Below are positions 27 through 58,004 of a stretch of DNA of 64,000 nucleotides, piece after piece. Under the pieces are notes generated by a model. The model was given only the letters and a program-made list of their open reading frames with translations. It did no database searches and was not told the DNA's origin. The position numbers and the translations under genes were made by a program. The stretch's first letter is position 1. Every line of letters begins with the position of its first letter. This stretch comes from Indolivaga alginatilytica (GTDB lineage Bacteria > Bacteroidota > Bacteroidia > Bacteroidales > Dysgonomonadaceae): assembly GCF_003201355.1 (NCBI RefSeq), contig NZ_QICL01000001.1, forward strand, positions 62,001-126,000, given 5' to 3'.

Positions 27-1250
27 ATGAATGTAGTCGACAGATTTATCAAATATGTGAAATTTGACACCGAATCAAATACAGAAACTCTTACCACTCC
101 CAGTACTCCGGGACAATTAGTACTAGCCGAGGAGCTGAAAAAAGAACTGATAGAAATAGGACTCGAAGATATATCATTAGACGGTAATGGATATTTGATG
201 GCAACCTTACCTGCTAATTCGGATAAAAAAATACCGACTATCGGTTTTGTTGCACATATGGATACAAGTCCCGATCTAACAGGAAAGAATGTCAATCCAC
301 GTATTGTAAAATCGTACGACGGCAAAGATATTATTCTCAACAAAGATCTTAATATCGTGCTTTCGCCAAACGACTTCCCCGAACTGTTGAAATTTACGGA
401 TCAGGATATTATCGTAACCGATGGAACTACTTTATTAGGTGCTGATGATAAAGCAGGTATCGCTGAAATTATAACGGCAATGAAATACCTGAAAGACCAT
501 CCCGAAATTAAACATGGAAAAATACGCATCTGCTTTACCCCTGACGAAGAAATAGGAGCAGGAGCTGATGACTTTGACGTAGAAAAATTCGGAGCCGAAT
601 GGGCTTACACGATGGATGGTGGAGAGTTGGGCGAACTTGAATACGAAAACTTCAATGCAACCGGCGTAAAAATAAACATACAAGGACGCAGTGTACATCC
701 CGGATCAGCTAAAAACAAGATGGTTAATGCACTTATTGTAGCCAATAAACTGGTATCGCTTATTCCTGCAAATGAAAGACCGGAACACACTTCTCATTAC
801 GAAGGTTTCTTTCACCTGATGGGAATGTCTGGTTCGGTTGATTCTGCCTCGGTATCATTCATTATTCGCGACCATGACAAAGCATTGTTTGAAAACAGAA
901 AGAAAATAATGACAGATGCTGTTGAATACCTTCAAAAGCTATACCCAAGCAGTACTATTTCACTTGAGATAAAAGATCAGTACTATAACATGCGCGAGAA
1001 AGTAGAACCTGTGATACAGATTGTAAACTACGCTTTCAATGCAATGCAGGAACTGGGTATAACACCTCTTGTAAAACCTATCAGAGGAGGCACAGATGGC
1101 GCCAGACTTTCATTTATGGGACTACCCTGCCCTAACATATTCGCAGGAGGATTAAATTTTCATGGACGCTACGAATACATACCTATCCCCTCTTTAGAAA
1201 AAGCGGTACAAGTAATCGTAAAGATTGCCGAATTAGTAGCTAAGGGTTAA
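27..1250 (+). CDS. pepT: Peptidase T (tripeptide aminopeptidase, M20B)
   Basis: Cytosolic zinc aminopeptidase that removes the N-terminal residue from tripeptides. The 407 aa length is normal for the family. Visible metal and catalytic motifs are AHMDTSPD (His77, Asp79), the bridging Asp140 in LLGADDKAG, and the Glu pair 174-175 in TPDEEIGAG. The dimerisation region [10 protein letters not shown] and the C-terminal [17 protein letters not shown] segment are also typical of PepT. The ATG at 27 follows an A-rich leader. The stop codon runs directly into a copy of the dispersed GGTC element. mgsA follows on the same strand. Confidence 0.95.
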
Positions 1251-1362
1251 GACCTCTTTATTACTGCTTTTTCTTAAAATGACAAATTATTATTCTGTAT
1301 ATTTACCAAAACAACAAAAAGGTCTGCGACCTTAAAGCATTATTGCTTTAAAACAAAAAAAT

Positions 1363-1842
1363 ATGAGAAAACGATTGACTATAGCTCTAGTTGCACACGA
1401 CCATCGCAAAGCCGATATGGTAGACTGGTGTTACTATAATTCAGATTTCCTATCAAGCCACCACTTGGTATGTACAGGAACAACAGGGCATCTTATCCGA
1501 CAGGCTTTCAGCGAAAAAGGTATCGATGCCGAAATAACCTGTATGAACTCGGGGCCTCTGGGGGGCGATGCCGAAATAGCGGCAATGGTAGTACGTCAGG
1601 AAATCAACATGGCCGTTTTCCTTATCGATGACTTGAATCCTCAACCTCACGAAGCAGACATTATGATGCTGTTGCGCCAGTGTCGCGTACATAACGTACC
1701 GATCGCCTGTAATCGTTACAGTGCCGACCTGATGATCACCAGTACTCTTTGGGACAATGAAGACTATACACCCACCAAACCTCGCTATGAACGTTTCGAT
1801 CGTGAAAAATTTGACGAGATATATGGCAAACTAAAAGGTTGA
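1363..1842 (+). CDS. mgsA: Methylglyoxal synthase
   Basis: Converts dihydroxyacetone phosphate to methylglyoxal and phosphate, a bypass that relieves sugar-phosphate stress. The 159 aa protein has all family landmarks: AHDHRKADM (11-19), the phosphate-binding TGTTGHLI (38-45), SGPLGGDAEIA with the catalytic Asp69 (equivalent of E. coli Asp71), and LNPQPHEADI with His96 (equivalent of His98). The Asp101-equivalent lies just after it. The TGA stop lies inside an AAGGT-tgaa-GACCTT palindrome. A strong terminator follows at 1868-1895. Confidence 0.96.
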   Translation: MRKRLTIALVAHDHRKADMVDWCYYNSDFLSSHHLVCTGTTGHLIRQAFSEKGIDAEITCMNSGPLGGDAEIAAMVVRQEINMAVFLIDDLNPQPHEADIMMLLRQCRVHNVPIACNRYSADLMITSTLWDNEDYTPTKPRYERFDREKFDEIYGKLKG

Positions 1843-1914
1843 AGACCTTTTTATTTAGTATAAAAAAAGAGAGACAGCTTACTGTCTCTCTTTTTCATAT
1901 AATCCCTATGTAGT

Positions 1915-2319
1915 TTATTTATAATCTTCCGGAGTTATTTTGAAACGATATATCGTATTACCATCCAGACCTCTGTAAATATATTCGGTTGTAATTCCAT
2001 ATCCGCGAATATCTTCCATTCCAGGATCGTTCTTTGTCATTTCCTTCACCGAAGCTACGATTTCATCTTCAAACTGAAGTGTATCAAAAGCTGCTGTATC
2101 GGTATAAGTATAATAGTGCTGCAAATCATTATTTTTCAGCAGTACAGTACTATCTATACGGATTGTAGTATTAACCATCTGGGGAAATTGCTTATTCAAA
2201 GCATCAACCTCAGTTTTCAATTGTTCATGAATTTTATCGCTACCGGATGTACATTGCACAAAAGACAATGCGATTAGAGATAATCCGGTACTAACTTTCA
2301 ATAGTGTAGTAAGTTTCAT
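1915..2319 (-). CDS. Putative lipoprotein, function unknown
   Basis: A 134 aa protein with an N-terminal signal sequence (hydrophobic residues 11-21) ending at Cys23 in the lipobox-like FVQC, followed by a Ser/Gly/Asp-rich linker. The remainder is hydrophilic, with no catalytic motif I recognise. It starts 12 nt downstream of menG on the same strand, so the two are probably co-transcribed, although there is no evident functional link. The start ATG is immediately followed by K and a hydrophobic stretch, which supports the chosen start. Confidence 0.75.
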   Translation of the reverse strand: MKLTTLLKVSTGLSLIALSFVQCTSGSDKIHEQLKTEVDALNKQFPQMVNTTIRIDSTVLLKNNDLQHYYTYTDTAAFDTLQFEDEIVASVKEMTKNDPGMEDIRGYGITTEYIYRGLDGNTIYRFKITPEDYK

Positions 2320-2331
2320 TATAAATATTTT

Positions 2332-3069
2332 TTATTTTTCACCCAAATACATGGAACAGACTCCCAATGTATAAGTTTTGCACTTTGCATTACGGAAACC
2401 GTTTTTACTAAGTACTCCCACCATCTCTTTACCTTGAACAAAGGCTTCAATAGATTTGGGTAGATATGAATATGCAGTTTTGTCTTTTGAGATAAACCGA
2501 CCGACAGTCGGAATAAACAATCGGGAATATAGCCAGTAGGCTTGTTTCATCGGGAAGTGTTCGGGACTCGACAACTCGAGTATCATTAATCTTCCTCCCG
2601 GTTTTAAAATTCGATGTATTTCTTTCAACCCCTTATCCAGATCTTCGAAATTGCGTATTCCAAATGCAACAATTGCCGCATCATATGAATTATCTGCAAT
2701 ATCTAATGACATGCAATCTTGCTTCTCGAAAGTAATTTTGTCTGATAAGCCTAGTTTAGCCACCTTCTGGCGACCAACCTCCATCATCCCTTCGGAGATA
2801 TCTATACCTGTGATTTTTTCCGATCCAAGCAACCTATATGCTTCTATCGCTAAATCGCCTGTACCTGTGGCAATATCTAAAATAGATTGGGGTTTGAGAT
2901 CTTTTAGAGTCAAAAGACCTTTCTTTCGCCATCCACGGTCTATACCCATAGATAACGTATGATTCAGTGTATCGTAGTTTTCTGCAATAGAATCAAACAT
3001 ACGTTCGACCTGAGCTCCTTTATTTTCGGAACTCTCATAAGGAACTACTTTTTCTGCCTGATATGTCAT
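2332..3069 (-). CDS. menG: Demethylmenaquinone methyltransferase
   Basis: SAM-dependent C-methyltransferase (UbiE/MenG) catalysing the last step of menaquinone synthesis. Visible motifs are VERMFDSIAENYDTLNHTLS near the N-terminus, the SAM motif LDIATGTGDLA (about 64-74), IVAFGIRNFEDL, and LKPGGRLMILELS. The C-terminal MYLGEK is complete. The frame is open to a GTG at 3087, but that codon lies inside a dispersed-repeat core. I place the start at the ATG at 3069 (MTYQAEK, 245 aa), as in other Bacteroidales. Because this lineage uses menaquinone, menG is the better name than ubiE. Confidence 0.94.
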   Translation of the reverse strand: MTYQAEKVVPYESSENKGAQVERMFDSIAENYDTLNHTLSMGIDRGWRKKGLLTLKDLKPQSILDIATGTGDLAIEAYRLLGSEKITGIDISEGMMEVGRQKVAKLGLSDKITFEKQDCMSLDIADNSYDAAIVAFGIRNFEDLDKGLKEIHRILKPGGRLMILELSSPEHFPMKQAYWLYSRLFIPTVGRFISKDKTAYSYLPKSIEAFVQGKEMVGVLSKNGFRNAKCKTYTLGVCSMYLGEK

Positions 3070-3078
3070 GTGTAAGTT

Positions 3079-3165
3079 TAAGGTCACCGACCTTTTTTGC
3101 TTTGGATATGAAGACGAATCTCATTCGCCCATTATATTAAAAGATAGAGCAAACCCTATCCCTTG
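3079..3165 (+). repeat. Dispersed GGTC element (core left, tail right)
   Basis: The core TAAGGTCaccGACCTT is followed by TTTTGCTTTGG and an AT-rich tail. The core lies 10 nt upstream of the menG ATG and creates a spurious GTG start. The end of the tail is approximate. Confidence 0.7.
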
Positions 3166-3200
3166 TAAATCAAAGTTCAGCAATAAATTGCCTAGAATAC

Positions 3201-3383
3201 TTAAATGATGCCTGCTGATTCAGCTTCGTTGCTCAATTTTCGAGCTCTGACTTTAACGATTTTTCCGTTTTTAGAAAAGATGAGATTACCATCTTCAATT
3301 TGTTTTTTTTCAATTAAACGAGTATAAGAAAGACTAAGACCAACCAATAATTTGCTTCTCAAAGCCAATTCGTTACGAGTCAT
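3201..3383 (-). CDS. Small protein coupled to zeta-toxin-like gene
   Basis: A 60 aa, strongly basic protein (MTRNELALRSKLL...). Its ATG overlaps the stop codon of the upstream P-loop gene in an ATGA arrangement (3380-3383), so translation of the two is probably coupled. The N-terminal half looks helical and the middle reads like a short beta element (GNLIFSKNGKIVKVRAR). I recognise no family. The position suggests an accessory or antitoxin-like partner, with the order toxin-then-partner. That role is inference only. Confidence 0.6.
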   Translation of the reverse strand: MTRNELALRSKLLVGLSLSYTRLIEKKQIEDGNLIFSKNGKIVKVRARKLSNEAESAGII

Positions 3384-3946
3384 ATATTTTTTATTTTGTT
3401 TAAAATATCTTCATTATGTTTCTCTATCATGTCTGATCTTTTACCTTCAGCCACCAGACAAAACGGATTTTCCGAATTGTTTACTACCAACCAATAATCA
3501 GCGATTGGAGTATATAAAGTAAACAGATTTTGCGCTCCCGCCCTGTATCTCCGACGAACTACATCCTGAGGCACATGATGCCCTCCGGCTTTAACTCGGT
3601 CTTCGACTCTTTTAATAGCTAATTCAGGAGAACTGAGCCAAAAATACAACAATGTTACGAAATAACCTACTTTTTGTGCTTTTTTAATAAATGATACATA
3701 CGATTTGGTTGCGAGCGTCGTTTCTATCGCAAAATCCTGTTGCAGCCTCAACATCTCCTCCATTCTGCGTATCATTATACGCCCTGCTTCGATGGATGCT
3801 TTCTCGGGTTGAAAGGGTGAAAGCCCCTTTGCAATCTCATCGGCATTGATAAATTCTTTACACTCGAGCATCTCGGGTAACATAGTATATGAAGCCGTAG
3901 TTTTTCCGGCACCATTACAACCGGATATGATATAGAGATTTGGCAT
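3380..3946 (-). CDS. Zeta-toxin-like P-loop kinase
   Basis: A 188 aa P-loop protein with Walker A SGCNGAGKTTAS (about 8-19), a following INADEIAKGLSP segment (zeta toxins have NxDxx(R/K) here, contacting the UDP-sugar substrate), and FAIETTLATKSY, the zeta-family ExT motif with a Thr. The arginine-rich VVRRRYRAGAQN is lid-like. Zeta toxins phosphorylate UDP-N-acetylglucosamine and block murein synthesis, but many chromosomal homologues are uncharacterised. The gene overlaps a 60 aa downstream ORF by 4 nt. An upstream epsilon-type antitoxin is not seen. Kinase fold is secure; toxicity is not. Confidence 0.8.
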   Translation of the reverse strand: MPNLYIISGCNGAGKTTASYTMLPEMLECKEFINADEIAKGLSPFQPEKASIEAGRIMIRRMEEMLRLQQDFAIETTLATKSYVSFIKKAQKVGYFVTLLYFWLSSPELAIKRVEDRVKAGGHHVPQDVVRRRYRAGAQNLFTLYTPIADYWLVVNNSENPFCLVAEGKRSDMIEKHNEDILNKIKNI

Positions 3947-3964: not shown

Positions 3965-4060
3965 TAAGGTCACAGACCCTATTTTTCTTTCAGCAGTTTA
4001 TCCACCAAAATTAATCATAATTGAAAATATAGCAATAAATATTTAGCAGTACTTAAGCAG
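3965..4060 (+). repeat. Dispersed GGTC element (core left, tail right)
   Basis: The core TAAGGTCacaGACCC is 19 nt upstream of the zeta-like gene start. It is followed by a T-rich stretch and, about 60-85 nt away, the distal box AATAAATATTTAGCAGTAC. Confidence 0.7.
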
Positions 4061-4109
4061 TATTCAATTGCTTTTAAATAAAGGTAACAATTTACTGCCA
4101 AATACCAAA

Positions 4110-4138
4110 TAAGGTTTGAAACCTTTTTACCGCTTTAA
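4110..4138 (+). repeat. Dispersed GGTC element, short copy
   Basis: TAAGGTTtgAAACCTTTTTACCGCTTTAAT, a diverged core and tail in the middle of the 3947-4306 spacer. That spacer is 360 bp long and has no credible gene. Confidence 0.6.
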
Positions 4139-4283: not shown

Positions 4284-4309
4284 TAATAATAAAAAGGTCT
4301 GAGACCTTA
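4284..4309 (-). repeat. Dispersed GGTC element at the purC stop
   Basis: On the minus strand the purC TAA stop (4307-4309) is the first three bases of TAAGGTCtcaGACCTTTTTATTATT. This is the mini-hairpin plus T-run arrangement. Confidence 0.75.
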
Positions 4310-5251
4310 TTTTTTCAAATAAGCAGTTATATTTTTCTCTATACGACCTTCAACATCGGCAATATCAGCTTTTACAAAAGGCTCGCCAACGATCTTTTCA
4401 TATAGCTCGATATATCTTTCTGAGACCGAGTTGCAATATTCTTCAGTCATTTCGGGAATTTGCTGTCCTTCTTTCCCTTGAAATCCGTTCTCCATTAGCC
4501 ATTTACGAACAAACTCTTTAGACAACTGACGTTGTTCTTGACCTTTTGCAAACAAATCCTGATAAGTATCCGCATAAAAATAACGAGACGAATCGGGTGT
4601 ATGTATTTCATCAATCAGATAAATTTTACCGTCTTTTTTTCCGAATTCGTATTTGGTATCTACAAGGATCAGTCCTTTTTGAGCAGCCATCTCTGTACCT
4701 CTTTGGAAAAGAGCAAAAGTATATTTTTCAAGTTGCTCGTATTCTTCTCTCGAAACCAATCCTTGAGCAATTATCTCTTCTTTCGAAATATTTTCGTCAT
4801 GCCCCTCATCCGCTTTAGTTGTCGGAGTAATGATCGGTGTTGTGAATTTTTGATCCTCCTTCATGCCATCGGGCAAAGGTAAACCGCAAAGTGTACGGGC
4901 TCCACTCTTATATTCACGCCATGCGCTTCCTGTAAGATAACCACGAATCACCATTTCCACCTTATAAGTTTCGCAACGCAAACCTACTGTTACCATAGGA
5001 TCGGGTGTTGCCTGCTTCCAATTAGGAACTATGTCTGCGGTTGCATCCAAAAACTTGGCTGCTATTTGATTCAAAACCTGCCCTTTGTATGGTATACCTT
5101 GTGGTAATACAACATCAAATGCCGAAATACGATCGGTAGCAATCATGACCAATGTATCTTTTCCTATTGAATACACATCACGTACTTTACCGTGATAAAC
5201 ATTTGTTTGATCTGAAAAATGATAATCAGTAGTAACTAAAGTATTCTTCAT
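4307..5251 (-). CDS. purC: SAICAR synthase (phosphoribosylaminoimidazole-succinocarboxamide synthase)
   Basis: Joins CAIR and aspartate with ATP to give SAICAR in de novo purine synthesis. At 314 aa it is the longer form of the family. Motifs are [26 protein letters not shown] near the N-terminus, [17 protein letters not shown] in the centre, and LVDTKYEFG...[15 protein letters not shown] in the nucleotide-binding lobe. It is monocistronic by spacing. A candidate -7 element lies 38 nt upstream and an 18-bp palindrome lies further upstream at 5335-5352. Confidence 0.96.
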
Positions 5252-5539: not shown

Positions 5540-5543
5540 GTTT

Positions 5544-7575: not shown

Positions 7576-7586
7576 AAGCTGTTCTA

Positions 7587-7619
7587 CTCGCCAAAGGAGT
7601 AAAAAGATCTGCGACCTTA
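7587..7619 (-). repeat. Dispersed GGTC element at the susD stop
   Basis: The minus strand reads TAAGGTCgcaGATCTTTTTA then CTCCTTTGG. The TAA is the susD stop. Confidence 0.7.
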
Positions 7620-9458
7620 ATATCCCGGATTCTGATAATAACCTCCGCCCCCTTCGAGTGTAGAAGTAAATGTAGTCGAGATAGGACGTAGTGCATACTC
7701 TGTATGGAAAAACTTCGCTACATCGGGATGAGTACTTTTCAGGTAACTATCATCCTTTAGCATACCCGTACGTTTCAAATCGTAGAAACGGCTGTCTTCG
7801 CCGCAAAGTTCACGAGCACGCTCATCCAGTATCGTACGGATAGTTGGTGTTGCTATCAACAGCTTTGCTCCTGCACGAGAACGGATCTTATTAATATATT
7901 TAGCGGCATTGGCTCCACCCGATGCATAAAGATCTGCTTCGGCAGCGATAAGATATACCTCAGCCATACGTATAATGAAAACAGCATTGAGATTACCATT
8001 ACGTCTTTGTGAAGCATTGGCTACAAAATAGTTACTGCTGTTATGCTTGGTAAGAGACGGATAAAAATAATTAAATAAGTTTTCAGACGTTCCGTTAGCA
8101 GTATAACCTGCCGATGGATTTTTATAAGAATACGTCATATTGATATTCTTATTCGCATCATTATACATATCCTTATAATCGACTAATAAGTAAGGCACTT
8201 TGTGTTTTGTGGCAACTTCCGAAGTATAGTCTGCATCCTGAGGCATAACAAATTTGATAGCCAGACTACCTAAGGCGAGAGAATTACCCAATACAGAAGC
8301 TTCTTTATCGTATTTATTGACCGATCCCTGATCCCAGCTATATTTTTGATTGGTCTTCCATTCCGTTTGAAAAGAGTTGTGGAATCGGGGATCAAGCGTT
8401 CCATCTTCCTGTACATATAGGCTCAACAGATGTTGCGTAGGCATGAATATTCCCGATTGGTTTCCTCCCCACTTCAAACGGGTTTCCTGATCGTCTACCA
8501 TCGCTCCGAAATTAGTAACCTTACAATAAAAATATTCATTGTTACGGTTCAACCTGTAATTACCATTACTCGAGCCATGACCGTCTGCTCCCGCATACCA
8601 TCTGTGTTTCCACAAAGCCTCTTTGTTTGTCCAATTATTTGCTTCCTTAAATACATCTTCATACGACGGATACAGGTAGGCATTGTACTGACCTCCCCCC
8701 GATTCTGCGTCGTCTATCAACATTTGGGCATATTTTAAAGCATCGGCAGCATATCCTTTAGTTGCGTCATATTCCACCGTTTGTAAGCAAGCCTTAGCCA
8801 GAAAACCCAGTGCTGCTTTTTTGGTAGGTCGGGAAGTGGTTGAATGGTCTCCAACAGGTAACCATTTAAAAGCAAATTCAAGATCGGGTATAATGATTTC
8901 TTTATAAATGGTTAAAGGGTCGGTTCTTTCGGGATGAAAATCGATCCCCTTTGCCGGTTCTGTAATTGCTGTTACACTGCCAAATTGCTCTACGGCATTA
9001 AAATAATATACTGCACGAAGAAAATAAGCTTCCGCAACAACAGCATTGCGTATTTCTTCGGTCTTGTAAGGAGGTTTATTTGCATACGCAATAGCAATAT
9101 TACATGATCCTATTCCGTCATAAGTACCATTCCACCAACTATTAGTATAGGTTGTATTGGGTGATGCTCCCGCAAAATACCAAAACCATTGGGTGTAAGA
9201 TGTCGATTTATTGGCTTGATAAGTCCATAAATCAGTACCGCCTTCCATCAGTGTCACCCAATTATCCGTACCGTAAAAATAACGCTGCATCGAAAAATAG
9301 CACTGGTTAATCAGCGTTTCATATCCTTCAATAGATTCCGCTGTTTTTTCCATCGTAAATCCCCCCGGATTTTCCTCATCCAACGAACAGGACGACAAAA
9401 ACAGATTGGATAACAGGAATAGCGAGAGCAAGGTTTTTATATCAAATATTTTTTTCAT
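7617..9458 (-). CDS. SusD/RagB family outer-membrane nutrient-binding lipoprotein
   Basis: A 613 aa lipoprotein with lipobox LSSC (Cys24). The body is typical of SusD: the early aromatic-rich region, a helical TPR-like core (AVVAEAYFLRAVYYFNAVEQFG), and the C-terminal EVYLIAAEADLYA...INKIRSRAG...LDERARELCGEDSRFYDLKRTGML block. It acts at the cell surface as the lid and ligand receptor of the SusC transporter encoded just upstream. No glycoside hydrolase or peptidase is adjacent, so the ligand cannot be named. The 152-nt spacer to susC carries a dispersed element. Confidence 0.94.
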   Translation of the reverse strand: MKKIFDIKTLLSLFLLSNLFLSSCSLDEENPGGFTMEKTAESIEGYETLINQCYFSMQRYFYGTDNWVTLMEGGTDLWTYQANKSTSYTQWFWYFAGASPNTTYTNSWWNGTYDGIGSCNIAIAYANKPPYKTEEIRNAVVAEAYFLRAVYYFNAVEQFGSVTAITEPAKGIDFHPERTDPLTIYKEIIIPDLEFAFKWLPVGDHSTTSRPTKKAALGFLAKACLQTVEYDATKGYAADALKYAQMLIDDAESGGGQYNAYLYPSYEDVFKEANNWTNKEALWKHRWYAGADGHGSSNGNYRLNRNNEYFYCKVTNFGAMVDDQETRLKWGGNQSGIFMPTQHLLSLYVQEDGTLDPRFHNSFQTEWKTNQKYSWDQGSVNKYDKEASVLGNSLALGSLAIKFVMPQDADYTSEVATKHKVPYLLVDYKDMYNDANKNINMTYSYKNPSAGYTANGTSENLFNYFYPSLTKHNSSNYFVANASQRRNGNLNAVFIIRMAEVYLIAAEADLYASGGANAAKYINKIRSRAGAKLLIATPTIRTILDERARELCGEDSRFYDLKRTGMLKDDSYLKSTHPDVAKFFHTEYALRPISTTFTSTLEGGGGYYQNPGY

Positions 9459-12696: not shown

Positions 12697-12785
12697 TAAG
12701 GTCACCGACTGACCTATTTATTACTTTGGAACACAAAAACAATAACCTGTTACGATTAGAAAGTATATCATTAAATACTCTCATT
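12697..12785 (+). repeat. Dispersed GGTC element upstream of susC
   Basis: TAAGGTCaccgactGACC is followed by TATTTATTACTTTGG, and the distal TATATCATTAAATACTC box is about 70 nt away. The core lies 27 nt from the susC ATG. Confidence 0.7.
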
Positions 12786-12936
12786 TACCAAGAGTCTGTT
12801 TTGATAAAATAAAAATTAAAGTTAAACGTTTTAGCAAAATAGTATTTCAATACATGTTAAGTCACATTTTTTAATTACGATTATTTATAACTATACGAGC
12901 TTATATTCAACATATTCCCTGCCGGTTCTTAGACAC

Positions 12937-20226: not shown

Positions 20227-20805
20227 ATGGAAAAAAGTATCAAAGGTACAGAAACTGAGAAATGTCTTTTAACCTCGTTTGCAGGTGAGTCTCAAGCCAG
20301 AATGCGTTACACCATGTTCGCAAAAGCGGCTAAAAATGAGGGATTCGAACAAATTGCAGCTATCTTCATGGAAACAGCCGAACAAGAAAAAGAACATGCC
20401 GAACGTATGTTCAACTACCTTGAAGGCGGAATGGTAGAGATCACTGCCTCTTATCCGGCAGGAAAGATCGGTACTACTGCCGAAAACCTGATAGAAGCTG
20501 CTGCCGGAGAACATGACGAGTGGGCATCAGAATACCCTAAATTTGCAGATATAGCAGAAGCCGAAGGTTTCAAACAAATAGCTGTAATGTATCGCATGAT
20601 CGCCAAGGTTGAAAACATGCACGAAGACCGTTACAAAGCTCTTCTGACAAGAGTAGAAAGCGGAGAAGTGTTTATGCGTGAAGAGCCTATCGAATGGCAA
20701 TGTATCAATTGCGGTTTTGTGATTAAGAGCAAAACTGCTCCTAAACAATGTCCTGCCTGTTTGCATCCGCAAGCATATTTCGAACCGCTTAAGTGGAACT
20801 TCTAA
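20227..20805 (+). CDS. rbr: Rubrerythrin
   Basis: A 192 aa cytosolic peroxidase that detoxifies hydrogen peroxide in anaerobes. The diiron ferritin-like domain supplies Glu21, the E54-K-E-H57 motif, Glu95 and E129-N-M-H132. The C-terminal rubredoxin domain has CxxC pairs Cys159/162 and Cys175/178. The family-typical end is PLKWNF. It is monocistronic, with a hairpin terminator at 20921-20962. Its stop codon is the first codon of a dispersed element. Confidence 0.96.
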   Translation: MEKSIKGTETEKCLLTSFAGESQARMRYTMFAKAAKNEGFEQIAAIFMETAEQEKEHAERMFNYLEGGMVEITASYPAGKIGTTAENLIEAAAGEHDEWASEYPKFADIAEAEGFKQIAVMYRMIAKVENMHEDRYKALLTRVESGEVFMREEPIEWQCINCGFVIKSKTAPKQCPACLHPQAYFEPLKWNF

Positions 20806-20903
20806 GGTCGCAGACCTCTCTATAGCTTTGGCTGGTATAATAATTAAAGGTAGTTATGGCTACGAAATGTAGCAATAAATAGTTGGATTACTTAATTTAA
20901 GTA
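20803..20903 (+). repeat. Dispersed GGTC element at the rbr stop
   Basis: TAAGGTCgcaGACCTC, then CTATAGCTTTGGCTGG. The distal box GCAATAAATAGTTGGATTACTTAA lies about 70 nt downstream. One of the most complete copies; the first TAA is the rbr stop. Confidence 0.75.
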
Positions 20904-21010: not shown

Positions 21011-21045
21011 CAAGGTCTAAGACCTTTTTATTGCGACATTACTTA
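21011..21045 (+). repeat. Dispersed GGTC element in a 5' leader
   Basis: CAAGGTCtaaGACCTTTTTATTGC. Its TTG at 21031 is a spurious in-frame start for the next gene. Confidence 0.7.
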
Positions 21046-27703: not shown

Positions 27704-27779
27704 ATATTTTTCACTTTGAATTACAAAGTAGGTTCTTTATTTTGAATTCTGCAACAAAAAGGAGTTCTTTTTTTACTTT

Positions 27780-27919
27780 AGAGTCTGTTTAAAAATTAAT
27801 AAAGAATATGTGTAGGGGAAAAAACCTTTCACGCGATGTTTGACGGGCGTATAACTATACGTCTCGACGGTTGTTTCAAATGCTTATTCAATGTCATCCC
27901 CGAAATTTAAACAGGCTCT
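27780..27919. mobile_element. MITE-like element with GAG(T/C)CTGTTTAAA inverted ends
   Basis: Terminal inverted repeats GAGTCTGTTTAAA (27781-27793) and TTTAAACAGGCTC (about 27906-27918, one mismatch), flanked on both sides by TTA, a likely 3-bp target duplication. The interior (about 110 bp) has no ORF but contains the inner palindrome CGTATAacTATACG. The ends and TNA-type duplication resemble IS5-family (IS1031-type) elements. Confidence 0.65.
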
Positions 27920-27979
27920 TAATAACTCCAACTATTTATTGCCGTATTTTATCATTACAACGATCTCGAGTTGCCGTAC

Positions 27980-28012
27980 TTGCCCAAGTAATAAAAAAGG
28001 TCTTAGACCTTA
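27980..28012 (-). repeat. Dispersed GGTC element
   Basis: CCCAAGTAATAAAAAAGGTCttaGACCTT. The 15-nt core palindrome is perfect. It sits between the MITE-like element and the MerR gene; the rest of the 378-bp spacer shows no gene. Confidence 0.68.
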
Positions 28013-34382: not shown

Positions 34383-34970
34383 ATGAAAGTATTATTTCTT
34401 ACAATTACATTTTTATACAGTTGTCTTTTAGTGTCGGCACAAGAAAATGATTTCTACAACCGGCTATCAGATGCTGCTATAGAATTAACCGGATCGAAAG
34501 TCAAGTATGACCCTGCCTATTTTAGTATACCTTATCCAAACGGTGATGTTCCGGCAGATAAAGGAGTATGCACCGATGTTATTATAAGAGCATATCGGAA
34601 AGTGAATATCGATTTACAGAAGAAGGTGCATGAAGATATGAAAGCCAATTTCAGCAAATACCCCAGTCAGAAGAAATGGGGATTAAAAAAGACAGATACC
34701 AATATCGATCACCGTCGGGTCTATAATCTGGAAACATTTTTCACGAGGAATGGTACAACAAAACCTATAACAACAAAGCCTGAAGATTACCAACCCGGAG
34801 ATATTGTATCATGGACACTCAACAATGGATTGGCACACATAGGAATAGTCGTAGACAGAAAATCAAAAGATGGAAAACGAAATCTCATTGTACACAATAT
34901 AGGAGGTGGACAAGTTATGGAAGACTGTTTATTCGCTTGGAAAATTGTGGGTCATTACAGATACAAATAA
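34383..34970 (+). CDS. DUF1287 family secreted protein (NlpC/P60-like fold)
   Basis: 195 aa with a signal peptide (1-19, LLVSAQ). The DUF1287 core shows YDPAYFSIPYPNGDVPADKGVCTDVIIRAYRKVNIDLQKKVHEDM, with Cys63 as the candidate nucleophile, followed by DTNIDHRRVYNLETFF and QPGDIVSWTLNNGLAHIGIVVDR, with the candidate catalytic His. Likely a periplasmic amidase or peptidase; the substrate is unproven. The TAA stop is the first part of a dispersed element. Confidence 0.85.
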   Translation: MKVLFLTITFLYSCLLVSAQENDFYNRLSDAAIELTGSKVKYDPAYFSIPYPNGDVPADKGVCTDVIIRAYRKVNIDLQKKVHEDMKANFSKYPSQKKWGLKKTDTNIDHRRVYNLETFFTRNGTTKPITTKPEDYQPGDIVSWTLNNGLAHIGIVVDRKSKDGKRNLIVHNIGGGQVMEDCLFAWKIVGHYRYK

Positions 34971-35055
34971 GGTCTCAAACCTTTTTGTTGCGTTGGTAAA
35001 CATAACAGCAATAGGTTACTACAATTTAAAAGTACATCATTAAATAGTTTCATCT
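34968..35055 (+). repeat. Dispersed GGTC element filling a spacer
   Basis: TAAGGTCtcaAACCTTTTTGTTGCGTTGG, then the distal CATCATTAAATAGTTTCATCTACTTA about 60 nt on. It occupies nearly all of the 106-nt gap between two genes and starts with the DUF1287 stop codon. Confidence 0.75.
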
Positions 35056-35076
35056 ACTTAAAAAAACAGCACAGAT

Positions 35077-35904: not shown

Positions 35905-35980
35905 TAAGGTCTTAGACCATTTTATTACTTTGTTAAGCATAATAGCTAGAGACAGCTATAAAATAAATATATAGTGTTAC
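35905..35980 (+). repeat. Dispersed GGTC element
   Basis: TAAGGTCttaGACCATTTTATTACTTTG. The distal AAATATATAGTGTTACTT box ends about 25 nt before the next ATG. Confidence 0.72.
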
Positions 35981-36002
35981 TTGATTATTAATAAAAACAA
36001 GA

Positions 36003-39227: not shown

Positions 39228-40088
39228 ATGAAAGATTCTCGTGCTACTATTCTGATATATTCACCCGATCAGCCGGGTTTAGTGGCTGCTGTTACCGATT
39301 TTATCTGTGTAAATGGAGGAAACATTATCCAACTCGAACAGCATGTCGACAAGCAAGAGGATATCTTCTTTATGCGCGTTGAATGGGATATAACAAAGTT
39401 CCTGATCCCGAAAGATAAAATTGGCGAATACTTTCAAACGATGTATGCCAATAAATTTGAAATGACATTCAGATTATACTTCAATGATTATACGCCTAAA
39501 ATGGCTGTCTTTGTATCCAAAATGTCACACTGTCTATTCGATATACTGGCACGTTATACAGCAGGAGAATGGAATGTGGAAATACCATTAATCATAAGTA
39601 ATCACGAAGATCTCAGATGGGTTGCCGAACGATTCGGAATAGAGTATCAGGTAATCAAAATCACCAAAGAAAACAAAGATGAGATGGAAGCCAAACAAAA
39701 GGCTCTACTCAAAGAAAAAGGTGTTGATTTCATCGTTCTGGCACGTTATATGCAGATTCTTACAGACGAATTTATTAAAGAATACCCTAATAAGATTATC
39801 AATATACACCATTCGTTCTTACCCGCTTTCGTTGGAGCAAAACCTTATCATGCAGCTTACGAAAGAGGTGTGAAAATTATTGGAGCAACAAGCCATTATG
39901 TAACCACCGAATTGGATGCAGGTCCTATCATAGAGCAGGATATAACACGTATATCGCATCGCGACAGTATATCCGATTTAGTACGTAAAGGGCAAGATTT
40001 AGAAAAGATTGTTCTGTCTCATGGTATCGAATACCACATCAATCGTAGAGTATTGGTTTACAAGAACAAAACTATACTATTCTCATAA
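39228..40088 (+). CDS. purU: Formyltetrahydrofolate deformylase
   Basis: 286 aa. It hydrolyses 10-formyl-THF to THF and formate, balancing the one-carbon pool and supplying formate for purine synthesis. The N-terminal ACT domain (about 6-85, ILIYSPDQPGLVAAVTDFICVNGGNI) is followed by a formyltransferase domain with VDFIVLARYMQIL, INIHHSFLPAFVGAKPYHAAYERGVKIIGATSHYV and TELDAGPIIEQD, which includes the catalytic Asn/His/Asp set. The stop codon starts a dispersed element. Confidence 0.95.
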   Translation: MKDSRATILIYSPDQPGLVAAVTDFICVNGGNIIQLEQHVDKQEDIFFMRVEWDITKFLIPKDKIGEYFQTMYANKFEMTFRLYFNDYTPKMAVFVSKMSHCLFDILARYTAGEWNVEIPLIISNHEDLRWVAERFGIEYQVIKITKENKDEMEAKQKALLKEKGVDFIVLARYMQILTDEFIKEYPNKIINIHHSFLPAFVGAKPYHAAYERGVKIIGATSHYVTTELDAGPIIEQDITRISHRDSISDLVRKGQDLEKIVLSHGIEYHINRRVLVYKNKTILFS

Positions 40089-40165
40089 GGTCACAGACCT
40101 TTTTATTGCTTTGGCTGGGTTATAGATTAACGTTCGTTAGAACTACTATAAAATGATGCAATAAA
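40086..40165 (+). repeat. Dispersed GGTC element at the purU stop
   Basis: TAAGGTCacaGACCTTTTTATTGCTTTGGCTGGG is the cleanest core and tail in the window. It fills the spacer up to the convergent LuxR-type gene, and the first TAA is the purU stop. Confidence 0.78.
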
Positions 40166-40177
40166 ACTGTATATCAA

Positions 40178-41059
40178 TTACAATTCTATTTCGTCAGCAG
40201 AAATATATCCGTGACTGATACAGTAGAAAATAAGTCCCGAAACGGTTTTAATACCTAATTTCGCCGTAATATTTTTACGGTGAGAAAGGACTGTGTTTAA
40301 ACTGATATTAAGACGATCAGCTATCTCCTTATTCAATAAGCCAAGAGCTATCAGTTTTAAAACCTCCAATTCGCGAGGAGAAATTGTATGCGATTCATCC
40401 GATAGTTGATGCGATTTAGGTTTGCCTATTAAACTTTGCCAATCATCGATACCCGCCTCAGCCAACTCTGCAATCATCGGTTTTAATATCTTCTCTCTTA
40501 TTCGATTGTGTTTAGTCAAATCGTTCAGTAAACTATCAACAGAAAACACAACAGCATAACAAAGGTTCTCATTAAAACTACCTGATATATGCTTTATCAG
40601 AATATTCTTCAAGTCTAATAGTAAAGCCTGAGAAGTATCATCATCCAGCAAACCATTGTTGATACGATGAATCAACGCTTCTTTAAAACGAATGAAAAGT
40701 TTACGTATAAGTTCGAGCTGCTTATTATTAGGATCGCTTGTCGCAATCAACGCATTTAGATGCTTTTCGATATTAGTTATCTGACCATGAATATAATACA
40801 TATCAGTCCGTTTCAGATAATCAGTAACAAGATCTATCTCGAACTCCTTCAATTTCTTTTCAGGAAAATAATCTTCATTGAGGTATGTATTCAGAATAGT
40901 CAGAAAAAAGTCGATATTCTGATTGTATTCCTCACTAATAGTCTTAACCGATTTATCTCCTAATCCTAACTTAATACCAAAGCGATTGATAACGGGTATC
41001 AATAAATAATTAACGCTCACAATTTCGGATAAAATAGAAGAAGGAGTCAGAAAAGCCAT
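40178..41059 (-). CDS. LuxR-type regulator with hemerythrin-like sensor region
   Basis: 293 aa. The C-terminal LuxR HTH (ISPRELEVLKLIALGLLNKEIADRLNISLNTVLSHRKNITAKLG, 227-269) is clear. There is no receiver domain. The N-terminus (LIPVINRFGIKLGLGDKSVKTISEEYNQNIDFFLTILN) resembles the ScdA/Ric N-terminal domain. The helical centre has spaced His residues (91, 131, 157, 184) and ends KHNRIREKILKPMIAELAE, a hemerythrin-like last helix. A role as an oxygen or nitric-oxide responsive regulator is inferred from this architecture. Confidence 0.75.
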   Translation of the reverse strand: MAFLTPSSILSEIVSVNYLLIPVINRFGIKLGLGDKSVKTISEEYNQNIDFFLTILNTYLNEDYFPEKKLKEFEIDLVTDYLKRTDMYYIHGQITNIEKHLNALIATSDPNNKQLELIRKLFIRFKEALIHRINNGLLDDDTSQALLLDLKNILIKHISGSFNENLCYAVVFSVDSLLNDLTKHNRIREKILKPMIAELAEAGIDDWQSLIGKPKSHQLSDESHTISPRELEVLKLIALGLLNKEIADRLNISLNTVLSHRKNITAKLGIKTVSGLIFYCISHGYISADEIEL

Positions 41060-41074
41060 AATAATTTGATTATA

Positions 41075-41161
41075 AGAAATGCAAATATTTAATATTACAT
41101 AAAAAAAGATAGCTAACTCTAGTTTTTGTACTTACCAAAGCAACAAAAAGGTCTACGACCT
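41075..41161 (-). repeat. Dispersed GGTC element
   Basis: The distal box AAATATTTAATATTACATAA begins about 15-20 nt upstream of the luxR-like ATG. The tail CTTACCAAAGCAACAAAAAGG and core GGTCtacGACC are at the right. Confidence 0.72.
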
Positions 41162-41228
41162 CAAATTTACAGAAATAATCCGACATCTCCCTCACGTTAC
41201 GTTAAATTTAAGATTGCGGACTACTGAG

Positions 41229-49026: not shown

Positions 49027-49038
49027 CTTTTATTCTTT

Positions 49039-49130
49039 TAAGTAATGCTAAATATTTAATACTATGTTTTATCAGCAAACCGCCTCCGGTTGTTGTGCCG
49101 AGACAAAGCAATAAAAAGGTCTGAGACCTT
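49039..49130 (-). repeat. Dispersed GGTC element, complete copy A
   Basis: From TAAGTAATGCTAAATATT (13 nt from an M16 ATG) through GACAAAGCAATAAAAAGG to core GGTCtgaGACCTT. It is about three quarters identical by eye to copy B at 54690-54782 along its full length. Confidence 0.82.
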
Positions 49131-49156
49131 TGCTTGGCTTTAGCTAGAATGAAACT

Positions 49157-51837: not shown

Positions 51838-51925
51838 ATTAAGATTTTAGACCTTTTATTACTTTGGTAAATACAACGGAAATAGGCTTGTTATAAATAA
51901 GGAGTATATCACTAAATACTTTTTC
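51838..51925 (+). repeat. Dispersed GGTC element upstream of the serine hydrolase
   Basis: The degenerate core TAAGATtttaGACC is followed by TTTTATTACTTTGGTAAATA. The distal TATATCACTAAATACTTTT lies about 65 nt away. The core is about 2-4 nt from the gene start. Confidence 0.66.
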
Positions 51926-51999
51926 CTGCCTATTTGTCGACATTTGTGAAAAATAATCACACAATATTAATGATTTCATCACAAATAAAGGCTTATTTT

Positions 52000-54583: not shown

Positions 54584-54665
54584 TTTGGTCTCAGACCTAT
54601 TTATTTGTGTACTTTATTCAGTAAATATACACAGAATAATGATTTAAATAATAGCTCTATTTAAT
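54584..54665 (+). repeat. Dispersed GGTC element upstream of the S9 gene
   Basis: GGTCtcaGACC with TATTTATTTGTGTACTTTATT to the right. A TTTAATGATATATTC box follows about 60 nt on. Its partner element at 54690-54782 points the opposite way, so together they make up most of the 283-bp spacer. Confidence 0.62.
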
Positions 54666-54689
54666 GATATATTCTCATGTTACCAGTTT

Positions 54690-54782
54690 TAAGTAACGTT
54701 TAATATTTAATGCGATGTTTTATCAGTATAACTATCTCTGGTTGTTATGCCTGCCAAAGCAATAAAAAGGTCTGTGACCTTA
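54690..54782 (-). repeat. Dispersed GGTC element, complete copy B
   Basis: TAAGTAACGTTTAATATT at the left, CCAAAGCAATAAAAAGG and GGTCtgtGACCTT at the right. Aligns end to end with copy A (49039-49130). Confidence 0.82.
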
Positions 54783-54823
54783 TAACTGTTTTAGCTACAA
54801 ATACAATAAGAGTACACGCAACT

Positions 54824-56227
54824 TTAGTTTTTTCGTCCAAAATTAAATAATGGAGATTCAGTACGTGCATTATCCATCAGAAGTACAAGTTCACTCAGTT
54901 TCTCGGGTTTAAGAGTTGCCAGATTCTGATCTTCATGAATATCTTTATCCAAATCATACAACTCCAATATAGTTTCGCCTACTATTGGTTGACGGATAAG
55001 TTTCCAATTTCCACTGCGGAGAGCTTCACGTCCATTCATTTCGTGAAATTCCCAATACAAATATTCATGTTGTTTCTGATCAGTAGTCGAAAATAATGTT
55101 GGAAGAAAAGATATTCCATCACCTTTTTCGGGCAAGGTAACATTTGTCAGTTCAGCCAAAGTAGGCATCACATCCCAAAAAGCACTTATATGATCGGTTT
55201 TTACGCCTCCCTTTATTTTAGAGGGAGACCACACAATCATAGGCACACGTATTCCACCCTCATATACATCACGCTTCACGCCTTTTAAAGGACCATAACT
55301 TTTAAAGTAATCGGGATTAGCTCCACCTTCACGGTGAGGGCCATTGTCGCTGGTGAAAATAATGATTGTATTTTTATCCAATCCTAAATCTTTCAACTGG
55401 GCAACAACTTCTCCCACATACATATCGAGCCTCGAAACCATAGCAGCAAAAGAAGCATAAGGTTTTTCACTTGCATAATAACCTGCACTTCCATCATAAG
55501 GAACTTCCTCAAAAGCATTTTCGTACATTTGATAGAGTGAGTCATGAGGTAAATTCAATTCGGCATGTGGCAGTGTATACGTCAGCATAGCGAAAAAGGG
55601 TTTGTCTTTATTCGCTTGTATAAATTGCATGGCTTGTTGATGGATTAAATCCTGAGAATAAACTTTCCTGCCATTATTTTCATTTTCAGAAAGCAGAACA
55701 ATATTATCGTTATGCCACAAATGTTCGGGGTAATATGTGTGAGCTTCGCGTTGGCAGTTATAACCATAGAATTCATCGAATCCCATTTTCGAAGGAACAG
55801 AGGCTGAACCGGGATAGCCTAATCCCCATTTACCAAAGATACCGGTAGCATATCCGGCAGACTTCATTAAAGTACCCAGCGTATAAGTACCTTCCTGCAT
55901 CGGTTGTTGACCTTCGGGTTTGATTTCTTTATTTCCACGTATTTGCGAATGTCCCGTATGCAATCCTGTCATTAGCGAACCTCTCGAAGGTGCACTCACC
56001 GTACAGCCTGCATAATGTTGGGTAAATAACATCCCTTCGCCCGCCAGTTGATCAATATTAGGGGTCTTTATTTTCTCCTGACCATAACATCCGATATCGC
56101 CATATCCCAAATCGTCTGCCAGAATGTATATCACATTCATAGGTGCCTGATCTTTAAGAGTCTCGCTTTTACATGCAGTTTGTACTGACAAAAATGCACT
56201 TGACAGAAACAACAATTGAACTTTCAT
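54824..56227 (-). CDS. Serine-type sulfatase (arylsulfatase family)
   Basis: 467 aa with a lipobox-like VQTAC (Cys19). The metal site is ILADDLGYGDIGCYG. The signature CTVSAPSRGSLMTG supplies Ser78-Ala-Pro-Ser-Arg82, so formylglycine would have to be made from Ser78 by an anaerobic sulfatase-maturating radical SAM enzyme, which is not encoded in this window. Further motifs: TGIFGKWGLG, FFAMLTYTLPHAELNLP, and TSDNGPHREGG. It is probably surface-anchored and removes sulfate from host or algal glycans. Confidence 0.93.
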   Translation of the reverse strand: MKVQLLFLSSAFLSVQTACKSETLKDQAPMNVIYILADDLGYGDIGCYGQEKIKTPNIDQLAGEGMLFTQHYAGCTVSAPSRGSLMTGLHTGHSQIRGNKEIKPEGQQPMQEGTYTLGTLMKSAGYATGIFGKWGLGYPGSASVPSKMGFDEFYGYNCQREAHTYYPEHLWHNDNIVLLSENENNGRKVYSQDLIHQQAMQFIQANKDKPFFAMLTYTLPHAELNLPHDSLYQMYENAFEEVPYDGSAGYYASEKPYASFAAMVSRLDMYVGEVVAQLKDLGLDKNTIIIFTSDNGPHREGGANPDYFKSYGPLKGVKRDVYEGGIRVPMIVWSPSKIKGGVKTDHISAFWDVMPTLAELTNVTLPEKGDGISFLPTLFSTTDQKQHEYLYWEFHEMNGREALRSGNWKLIRQPIVGETILELYDLDKDIHEDQNLATLKPEKLSELVLLMDNARTESPLFNFGRKN

Positions 56228-56282
56228 AGCTTATAATTATATTAGAATTAGGTTATTCATCAGGAAACTATATCAAACACAA

Positions 56283-56325
56283 TTTCTGTTATTGCCATCT
56301 ACTGAGAGAGTAACAATAACAGAAA
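56283..56325 (-). terminator. Hairpin downstream of sufE
   Basis: Arms TTTCTGTTATTG (56283-56294) and CAATAACAGAAA (56314-56325) with a 19-nt loop, 55 nt after the sufE stop. T-run weak on both strands, so the call is moderate. Confidence 0.5.
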
Positions 56326-56380
56326 CTAGTCGGATATTTATCACAGACAGGGCAACTCCCTATCTCTGTAATCTATTCAA

Positions 56381-56812
56381 TTAAGCGTTTTTAGCTTTGA
56401 ATGCCATAGCGTAAAACCTCATTTGCTTTACCATCGACACCAATCCATTCGAACGGGTTGGGGAAAGATGCTCATTCAAGCCTATTTTATTTATGAAATA
56501 CAAATCTGCATTTATAATTTCGTCCGGTGTATGATTAGTCAGAACCCGTATCAATAAGGCTATAATTCCTTTTACAATCACCGCATCACTTTCAGCTTTG
56601 AATGTTACAATACCATTTTCGCATTCAGCTTGTAACCAAACACGGCTTTGACAACCTTCTATCAGGTTTAGTTCTACTTTATACTTTTCGTCTAAAGGTT
56701 CTAATGAATTTCCCAATTCGATCAGGTAGGCATATTTATCCATCCAATCTTCGAATATCGAAAATTCTTCTATTATTTCGTCTTGAATATCGTTTATTTT
56801 TGCTTGATTCAT
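56381..56812 (-). CDS. sufE: SufE-like sulfur acceptor
   Basis: 143 aa. It accepts persulfide sulfur from a SufS cysteine desulfurase for Fe-S cluster assembly. The active-site Cys54 lies in LIEGCQSRVWL. The rest matches the SufE fold (IVTFKAESDAVIVKGIIALLIRVLTNHTPDEI, GLNEHLSPTRSNGLVSMVKQM). The other suf genes are not in the window. It sits between the glutaminyl cyclase gene (50 nt upstream) and the sulfatase, with hairpins after it. Confidence 0.95.
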   Translation of the reverse strand: MNQAKINDIQDEIIEEFSIFEDWMDKYAYLIELGNSLEPLDEKYKVELNLIEGCQSRVWLQAECENGIVTFKAESDAVIVKGIIALLIRVLTNHTPDEIINADLYFINKIGLNEHLSPTRSNGLVSMVKQMRFYAMAFKAKNA

Positions 56813-56862
56813 TTCTATTAATGTACAATGAAATATTAAAAAACAGATAGGTTTTTTAAACC

Positions 56863-57855
56863 TTATTTCTCTTTATAGACTACTTCCAATACTGTCTGTC
56901 CGACAGCCTTAAGCGTCTCTTTACTGATATTGCTCATATCGTCTTTTGTTGTATGGTGATACCATCCAAAACCCGAATCGGTACTCAAATCATATTGAAT
57001 AATATCGATGCTGGGTATGCCTCTATTCTCATTTACAGGCAGATGATCATCAGTAATACCTCCACCGTCTTTATCTACAAAATGTTTTCCGTATCCTAAA
57101 TCACGAGCTGTACCCCATACCTTTTCAACAATGCCTCGGGCATATTGCCTTGATATTGATTCTTTATAAAAAGTAGCATCAGGAGCACCAACCATATCCA
57201 GAAGAATACCAAAACGTGCTTTATATCCGGGCACATGAGGGTTGTTAGACCAATATTCCGAACCCAAACACCATCCTTCTCCTGAGGGAATATCATGAAC
57301 AAAATTAGGTGTACCATAATCCTCGGCATCAAAAAAGATGATATCAACACCTAAATCAGGAGCCTTTTCCTGCAATATACGGGCAACTTCGAGTAAGACT
57401 CCCACTCCACTTGCTCCATCATTAGCACCTAGTACGGGCGTATGATAATTCTTCTCATCAGGATCTTTATCCGAGAAAGGACGTGTATCCCAGTGTGCAA
57501 ATAATAATATACGGTCTGTTTTTTCGGGGTTAAATGCACCTATTATATTGCGTGCATGTAGTATCGTTCCGTCAAAAGCCTTTAAATCTACTTTTTGCTC
57601 AATCACCTTAGCCCCAAACCGCTCCAACTGAGACACCAGATAATCACCACACGCTCTATGAGCTTCGGTGTTAGGCACACGTGGTCCGAAGGCTACTTGT
57701 TTATCCACAAAATAAAAAGCACTGTCCGAATTAAAATCGGGAGATACTTGTTCATAACGTTCCGACACTGTTGTGTTATTTACGGTTTTCTGTCCACACG
57801 AACAAGCCAATAGGCCCACCATAAAACAGGTTAAAGTTACATTTCTAAAAATCAT
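56863..57855 (-). CDS. Glutaminyl-peptide cyclotransferase (M28-like)
   Basis: 330 aa lipoprotein (lipobox LLAC, Cys18). It converts N-terminal Gln to pyroglutamate on exported proteins. The M28 fold has LLFAHWDTRPFSD, the metal residues Asp146 (LGANDGASGVGV) and the acidic pair in FFDAEDYG (177-180), and the late His in WYHHTTKDDMSNIS. Overall it resembles the type II QC of Porphyromonas, which caps secreted proteins after signal cleavage. Aminopeptidase activity is the main alternative, but the single-zinc QC pattern is favoured. Confidence 0.85.
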   Translation of the reverse strand: MIFRNVTLTCFMVGLLACSCGQKTVNNTTVSERYEQVSPDFNSDSAFYFVDKQVAFGPRVPNTEAHRACGDYLVSQLERFGAKVIEQKVDLKAFDGTILHARNIIGAFNPEKTDRILLFAHWDTRPFSDKDPDEKNYHTPVLGANDGASGVGVLLEVARILQEKAPDLGVDIIFFDAEDYGTPNFVHDIPSGEGWCLGSEYWSNNPHVPGYKARFGILLDMVGAPDATFYKESISRQYARGIVEKVWGTARDLGYGKHFVDKDGGGITDDHLPVNENRGIPSIDIIQYDLSTDSGFGWYHHTTKDDMSNISKETLKAVGQTVLEVVYKEK

Positions 57856-57863
57856 AAGTTATA

Positions 57864-57955
57864 TAAGTAACGTAAATATTCATGGTTCCTCATGGGTGAT
57901 ATCTTGATCCTTTTATCTTTACAACAAAAAATCACAAAGGTCTCACACCTTACTT
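57864..57955 (-). repeat. Dispersed GGTC element
   Basis: TAAGTAACGTAAATATT begins 9 nt from the glutaminyl cyclase ATG. TTTACAACAAAAAATC and core AGGTCtcaCACC follow. Confidence 0.66.
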
Positions 57956-57959
57956 TCTT

Positions 57960-58004
57960 ACAAAGATATGTAATGATAGCAATAAATAGGTCTGTAAACC
58001 TCAA
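57960..58004 (-). repeat. Dispersed GGTC element, tandem short copy
   Basis: GCAATAAATAGGTCTGTAAACC, 6 nt from the antiporter stop. It follows another copy in the same orientation. A TATCTTTG -7-like box (57968-57961, minus) lies between them. Confidence 0.55.

Follow-up and report, generated by a model that had tools for sequence, protein, structure and literature searches.

What is the short sequence that recurs in the gene spacers of a 64,000-nucleotide stretch of Indolivaga alginatilytica DNA, and how did it come to be there? The stretch (positions 62,001 to 126,000 of contig NZ_QICL01000001.1, hereafter the window; 37% G+C) belongs to a 5.12-Mb draft genome, referred to below as G000. 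An earlier inspection of the letters alone, the sequence-only reading, had noticed an intergenic element with a GGTC-N3-GACC core and a conserved tail, and had proposed a mobile repeat of the REP, ERIC or RUP kind, a family of RNA processing or termination elements, or both. Our analysis confirms that this recurring intergenic element is real and reveals that it is a repeat resembling miniature inverted-repeat transposable elements (MITEs), flanked by a TA duplication. Very probably it represents a short, non-autonomous family that inserts into TA and whose left end resembles a terminator.

The full model, a profile derived from 54 near-full copies, was used to scan 464 kb of G000 sequence consisting of the window and 20 adjoining stretches. 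The scan returned 92 matches at E <= 0.01, 89 of them intergenic and 3 coding, and 17 full-model matches lie within the window. By contrast, ten second-order shuffles of 74.6 kb of spacer gave no full-model match even at E <= 10, which bears out the expected enrichment over shuffled spacers. The pattern GGTCNNNGACC, with at most one mismatch, occurs 22 times in the window versus 7.7 +/- 2.6 times in shuffles, and the exact core AAGGTCNNNGACCTT is found at 289 sites across the whole genome, with 0 for the backward control. A chance origin of the repeat is ruled out by the shuffle and backward controls. Extrapolation to the genome gives about 1,000 copies by length, or about 740 by exact cores (36 of the 289 are in the sample). 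The earlier estimate of about two dozen copies in the window is about right, because 20 left ends exceed 12 bits there. Eleven of the twelve positions that had been given as examples fall on a model match; the remaining one, 57864, does not, and looks like a degenerate copy. The copies at 49039 and 54690, which had been aligned end to end at roughly three quarters identity by eye, agree at 78 of 95 positions (82% identity). The repeat is unmatched in Rfam at the gathering score, where the sole match in the window is a tRNA, and literature searches found no published description of it or of Dysgonomonas repeats, in agreement with the remark that no named family matches.

The element is about 90 bp long, with the arrangement AGGTC-NNN-GACCTTTTTATTGC ... 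GCAWTAAATATT-NNNN-TTACT. Together with the flanking TA, the alignment spans about 94 nt and reads TA-(AGGTC NNN GACCTTTTTATTGCTTTGG - variable middle - GCAWTAAATATT NNNN TTACT)-TA; one copy is just about 60 bp long. This alignment (A1) contains 44 of the 54 near-full copies and omits six with a foreign palindrome, three that are strongly truncated, and L007:13861-13942. The distal TAAATAtt...TTACTTA box that had been seen beyond the tail corresponds to the element's right end, TTACT plus the adjoining TA, and conservation reaches past the hairpin to the inner boxes and this right end. Read from the outside inward, both ends start with AG (positions 1-2) and share a TTTAWTGC box at equal distance (positions 15-22). 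The left end and the reverse-complemented right end agree at a mean of 10.4 of 24 positions versus 7.1 +/- 2.1 for internal stretches, and the consensus ends match at 13 of 24 in register, or at 7-8 if slid by one. The two ends would thus constitute an imperfect terminal inverted repeat.

The left end contains a terminator-like hairpin with a stem of 5-7 bp, followed by a run of T. Columns 5 and 17 of the stem covary (GC 35, CG 4, UA 2 and GU 1 in the 44 copies). In the complete genome G001, 90 of 95 left ends are complementary at these columns and 30 of these carry T-A, a hand count in which the copies of this T-A stem-pair subfamily are not independent. The first hairpin is paired in 93.5% of the alignment cells and the remaining two in 67-78%; a conserved three-hairpin RNA fold was rejected, as RNAalifold predicts the first hairpin alone. 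Inspection by eye for a Bacteroides-type promoter within the element did not establish one. The middle of six of the 54 copies is swapped for a second palindrome, GTAGGGG...CCCCTAC (GTAGGGG...GACAGACACATAGGTCTGCCCCTAC), for example at L007 6822-6961 and L020 15243-15372, either through nested insertion or through shuffling of a module.

The mobility of the repeat was examined by comparing filled and empty sites among relatives. Flanks of 250 bp, with the two sides searched separately, were compared between the 464 kb of G000 and 420 kb of G001 plus 180 kb of G005. This resulted in 105 comparisons, 53 of them short-distance, 46 occupied and 6 between. The 53 short-distance pairs include 39 with a gap of at least 35; the pairs not named here show flanks of poor quality, partial deletions or gaps that are misplaced. 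In an ungapped test, 51 elements of G000, G001 and G005 with both ends were compared with the other genomes, using 25 bases per flank, junction lengths from -4 to 8 and a cut-off of at least 39 of 50 flank bases. Below this cut-off are 30 of 35 rows, scattered over all spacings as noise. Five strong sites stand above it, and at four of the five the empty junction is exactly two bases: TA at G000 20805 and 54780 (against G005) and at G000 400453 (against G001), and TG at G000 201589 (against G001). Four further two-base junctions were recognised by eye, with TA throughout at G005 90714 and G001 137193, TG in the empty allele at G000 106492, and TG on the left at G001 396708. Over all eight sites, TA is present at all three places in four and one substitution is present in the other four.

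Insertions run both ways, with filled alleles found in G000, G005 and G001. The left TA is conserved at T 0.89 and A 0.92 (99 left ends above 18 bits) and the right TA at T 0.91 and A 0.91 (54 right ends above 14 bits); outside the flanking TA there is only a weak preference, for T before and A after. Because the empty junctions are mostly of two bases and the TA on either side is conserved at about 0.9, we conclude that the target-site duplication is TA at a symmetric target. The proposed comparison of orthologous spacers in relatives thus disclosed presence and absence, with TA-duplicated empty sites that support the mobile, RUP-like option. Among the window copies, the site of 20803..20895 is empty in G005, where a single TA is part of a TAA; the element at 49038..49131 was not seen in the corresponding spacers of G001 and G003, where the empty junction lacks a clean boundary.

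The repeat is a MITE by its size (about 90 bp, too short for a transposase), its copy number and mainly intergenic position (89 of 92), and the duplication found at filled/empty pairs; the inverted repeats are weak, and the sequence read held no autonomous partner. Several observations weigh against this assignment or blur it. The inverted repeat is poor, the fifth strong site (G000 109266, L003 near 5266, against G001) has five junction bases rather than two, reflecting imprecise excision or a later change, and the junctions at G000 411602, G000 40072 and G005 95535 are off by one or two bases by eye. Moreover, nearest-copy identity is below 0.90 for 49 of the 56 G000 copies in the 464 kb; it reaches at least 0.90 in the other 7, and in 2 of 12 copies in G001, values in which local alignments may enter the flanks. 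Since few copies have so close a neighbour, the sampled family appears to be mainly old, with some later activity.

The position of the ends relative to genes was then analyzed. Genes were called with a hexamer-based caller, so that start codons are crude, and the pooled counts combine G000, G001, G005 and G004, with orthologous loci shared between genomes kept in. In this pool, 28 of 157 left ends lie exactly on stop codons versus 2 of 75 right ends (Fisher p 0.0007). The chance expectation is about 2-4%, stop codons making up 3.9% of the available TA sites of G000 and 1.9% of site-and-side pairs. G000 itself contributes 20 of 87 left ends and 2 of 48 right ends, and left ends on stop codons elsewhere number 5 of 41 in G001, 1 of 22 in G005 and 2 of 7 in G004. 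No right end was detected for 13 of the 20 in G000. In all five cases looked at, the relative's allele retains a stop at the corresponding position, TAA in four (40072, 151784 and 137541 in G001, 20805 in G005) and TAG in one (74467 in G005). As the stop is retained in relatives that lack the full element, the gene has not been shortened. Whichever strand is read, the inserted sequence starts with A (AGGTC or AGTAA), and insertion into TAA or TAG therefore leaves TAA. A right end would preserve the stop too, so that insertion preference alone fails to explain the asymmetry between the ends. A T run follows the left end in the sense direction only, and the simplest reading is therefore selection for, or tolerance of, a terminator at the left ends on stop codons.

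Both kinds of end are also over-represented within the 1-30 nt that precede start codons (38 of 157 left ends and 21 of 75 right ends versus 9% expected, two- to three-fold). The description of the core as the gene-proximal end is borne out in part. Spacers that had been described as gene-core-tail-tail-core-gene are read as two separate insertions. The D. capnocytophagoides stretch L080 1638-7059 holds nine left ends within 8 kb, one of which (2205) is on a stop codon.

Co-option of the left end as a terminator would account for the bias on stop codons, and the suggestion of a termination element is indirectly supported to that extent. Several tests do not support it. The stop-codon contrast amounts to 8 of 70 left and 0 of 27 right ends outside G000, and to 7 left versus 2 right ends among 41 paired G000 copies. 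Hairpin quality is alike behind genes and elsewhere, with a perfect 5-bp stem in 32 of 47 and 76 of 110, respectively, and convergent spacers hold 4 of 66 elements compared with their 20 of 238 share of spacers longer than 100 nt. Predicted energies of five hairpins are modest (-3.0 to -6.0 kcal/mol), and a terminator consensus scan called three of six left ends at 34-54 kb. The G005 copy of the element at 34968-35061 is without the hairpin and T run (about 25 bp) while the remainder is recognisable, a natural deletion of the terminator-like part.

These data bear also on a non-mobile origin, in which the sequences would be vertically inherited intrinsic terminators or RNA processing signals and their presence or absence would result from deletion. 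The divergence of most sampled copies, the left ends on stop codons and the failure to find a transposase partner are all compatible with such an origin. We nevertheless consider it very unlikely, given the single-TA empty sites in both directions among three genomes, the conservation of the inner boxes and right end, and the occurrence of both orientations (32 sense and 19 antisense in co-directional spacers).

If the repeat is mobile, which enzyme moved it? Four transposase families were searched: DDE_3, DDE_Tnp_1, rve and Y1. An IS630-type insertion sequence (IS) would fit the TA duplication, but its transposase, DDE_3, has no match at E <= 0.001 in four genomes; because it was tested and not found, the repeat is not filed under IS630. 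A parent of the IS4/IS5 type was rejected as well: DDE_Tnp_1 is represented in four genomes by one C-terminal fragment, near a contig end, whose terminus is different by eye. Matches to rve (IS3/IS21/IS30 type) are missing in G000 and G003 among five genomes, and the seven loci in the other three show one weak single end and no left-right pair, so this parent was likewise set aside. In a 1.2-Mb set, 17 left-right pairs spanning 160-4,000 bp were read for an enclosing element; their open reading frames, taken in part at 120 aa or more, are ordinary genes, none transposase-like by eye, without a profile scan. Unpaired ends at seven places in G001 mostly have their own partner, and a 2.4-kb candidate near 1.74 Mb holds ordinary genes. 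The scarcity of DDE and rve matches, the absence of Y1 matches from G004 and G005 and the lack of an enclosing pair in the intervals read count against the MITE reading. As the search covered four families and about a tenth of G000, and contigs C67-C73, the smallest, read N, a parent could have been missed.

The groups IS5/IS427 and IS30 generate duplications of 2-4 bp. The repeat could be a deletion derivative of such an IS, with the parent in unsampled sequence, which is the MITE reading with the enzyme named; we regard this as a tentative possibility, somewhat short of an even chance. The size of the duplication fits. The IS5-type MITE ends of Porphyromonas gingivalis, such as GAGACCTTTGCA (excerpt of PMC4596501), partly resemble the inner half of the left end; however, GAGACC is outermost in P. 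gingivalis, whereas the empty sites described here place AGGTC outside it. Furthermore, among the four families searched, PF01609 and PF00665 gave few matches in the genomes examined.

REP/RAYT and IS200/IS605 elements use four or five flanking bases. A derivation from this group, in which a Y1 (HUH) transposase would recognise the hairpins in single-stranded form and TA would belong to the cleavage site, appears improbable. It would agree with the covariation of the left hairpin, with columns 78/93 in the right part changing from AU to GC in five copies, with the asymmetry of the ends, and with the Y1 matches, which occur in G000 and five of seven other genomes (one match each in G000, G001 and G003). 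On the other hand, the two flanking bases, rather than four or five, are strongly conserved. Copy-rich G004 and G005 carry the repeat with no Y1 match, so that two of four same-genus carriers are without one, and the sole Y1 gene of G000 (in L021) is bordered not by the repeat but by different hairpins, GGATTTGCAATCC. These findings led us to reject REP/RAYT, the REP option of the sequence-only reading; the repeat resembles such elements in being palindromic, intergenic and multicopy and differs in the lack of Y1 linkage and the TA on both sides. The Y1 gene of G000 is itself located in a row of similar small genes (L021 286-3082; MKTDLYTK... proteins of 83-104 aa).

Counts of the repeat by the survey model, R1, are lower bounds in copy-rich genomes. 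At E <= 1e-4, matches occur in 25 of the 101 genomes of the family and in 4 of its 15 genera. Carriers comprise five of the six genomes of the source genus, 18 genomes of a second genus in which at least 7 others are without the repeat, one genome of a third genus (at least 18 matches) and one of a fourth (a single match). The 16 genomes sampled from other families of the order yielded no match at E <= 0.001. Among the matches listed for the exact pattern in named genomes, 37 of 41 stretches are from Dysgonomonas, three from Prevotella sp. TD116_bin59 and one from Bacteroides sp. UBA939. The host is accordingly taken to be a relative of Dysgonomonas. No match was found in plasmids and phages (one query copy each) or in viral contigs (one exact pattern).

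The pneumococcal repeat RUP has a TA duplication. Together with SPRITE, the former as a short MITE and the latter for its hairpin end, it appears to be the closest analogue of the repeat, a comparison made from descriptions. In the excerpts available of PMC3049150, RUP is 107 bp long, AT-rich and present in 110 copies in one genome, with inverted repeats and duplications, and its ends resemble those of the resident IS thought to mobilise it, IS630-Spn1. The present repeat is likewise a short MITE. RUP has IS630-type ends, whereas here a protein of the IS630 type was detected in none of the four genomes searched for one. SPRITE is portrayed in the same excerpts (PMC3049150) as a mobile-looking hairpin with a uridine-rich tract, enriched near gene 3' ends and proposed to be co-opted as a terminator; it has an 18-bp stem, AAAA/TTTT ends and no established duplication, in contrast to the 5-7 bp stem and TA duplication here. 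BOX supplies a stop codon in 36 cases, truncation being without strong evidence, and shares this property with our repeat; it is modular and 67-637 bp long, unlike the ~90-bp element (excerpts of PMC3049150). Among Bacteroidales, the excerpted part of PMC4596501 lists the non-autonomous P. gingivalis repeats MITE239, MITE464/PgRS, MITE700 and BrickBuilt, with about 10-20 copies each; these differ in having IS5-type ends common to resident IS elements and, for BrickBuilt, duplications of CT, GAAA and AAAAA. A review on MITEs, as far as excerpted, deems terminators inside MITEs conceivable and names SPRITE (PMC10969869), and a Cardinium MITE has a resident IS982 parent according to the excerpt of PMC9769881.

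Taken as a MITE-like family, the repeat would have spread as short non-autonomous elements among Dysgonomonas and a small number of relatives. Both ends, with their AG start and inner TTTAWTGC box, would be joined by a trans-acting enzyme to a TA, which is thereby duplicated. Both ends begin with A on the entered strand, as can be read from the sequence, and an insertion at a stop codon's TA would rebuild TAA. Behind a gene in the sense orientation, the self-complementary left end with its T run could then act as an intrinsic terminator; copies in that position may have been kept preferentially, many presumably decaying to the bare hairpin. The mobilising enzyme is not recognised in the genomes tested and may have been lost. 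A more far-reaching version, an orphan MITE family in genomes poor in the searched transposase families, amplified by an enzyme that belongs to none of the known IS families and is perhaps host-domesticated, and rebuilding hundreds of gene 3' ends with a TAA stop and terminator in one step, seems unlikely to us.

The copies in the window are compiled in Table 1. G005 lacks about 230 bp corresponding to 27777-28011, comprising the element at 27918-28012 and adjoining sequence, so that more than one insertion may be involved there.

Table 1. Copies and remnants of the repeat in the window (positions counted from its first letter)
Feature	Position	Strand	Score and remarks
Element, right end decayed	1257..1336	-	38.5 bits
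Left-end remnant	3079..3106	+	16.7 bits
Element, diverged	3965..4056	+	45.9 bits
Left-end remnant, weak	4100..4136	+	13.4 bits
Core-only left-end remnant on stop codon of gene 4307-5251	4288..4309	-	23.0 bits
Left-end remnant on stop codon of gene 7617-9458	7577..7619	-	33.3 bits
Element, 4 extra hairpin bases	12697..12792	+	59.8 bits
Element, left end on stop codon of gene 20227-20805	20803..20895	+	80.1 bits
Left-end remnant, core only	21011..21034	+	17.7 bits
Element	27918..28012	-	76.0 bits
Element, left end on stop codon of gene 34383-34970	34968..35061	+	model match
Element	35905..35982	+	48.4 bits; in G001, absent from G005 and G003
Element in TAA stop of gene 39228-40088	40086..40181	+	G001 empty with TAA; junction off by about 2 bases
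Element, diverged	41071..41163	-	60.0 bits
Near full-length element	49038..49131	-	81.5 bits; also in G005
Element, hairpin diverged	51840..51933	+	53.8 bits
Left-end remnant, weak	54584..54605	+	left-end model 16.3 bits
Near full-length element	54689..54782	-	99.1 bits; empty allele AACAGTTA-TA-AAAG in G005
Left-end remnant, weak	57978..58004	-	left-end model 14.7 bits

The finding raises the question of which enzyme moved the repeat in genomes where the searched transposase families are few. With 289 exact cores and some 740-1,000 extrapolated copies, the repeat affects the make-up of many spacers in these bacteria and needs to be recognised before their terminators or promoters are annotated, and the filled and empty pairs allow the effect of acquiring a stop-plus-hairpin cassette to be measured.

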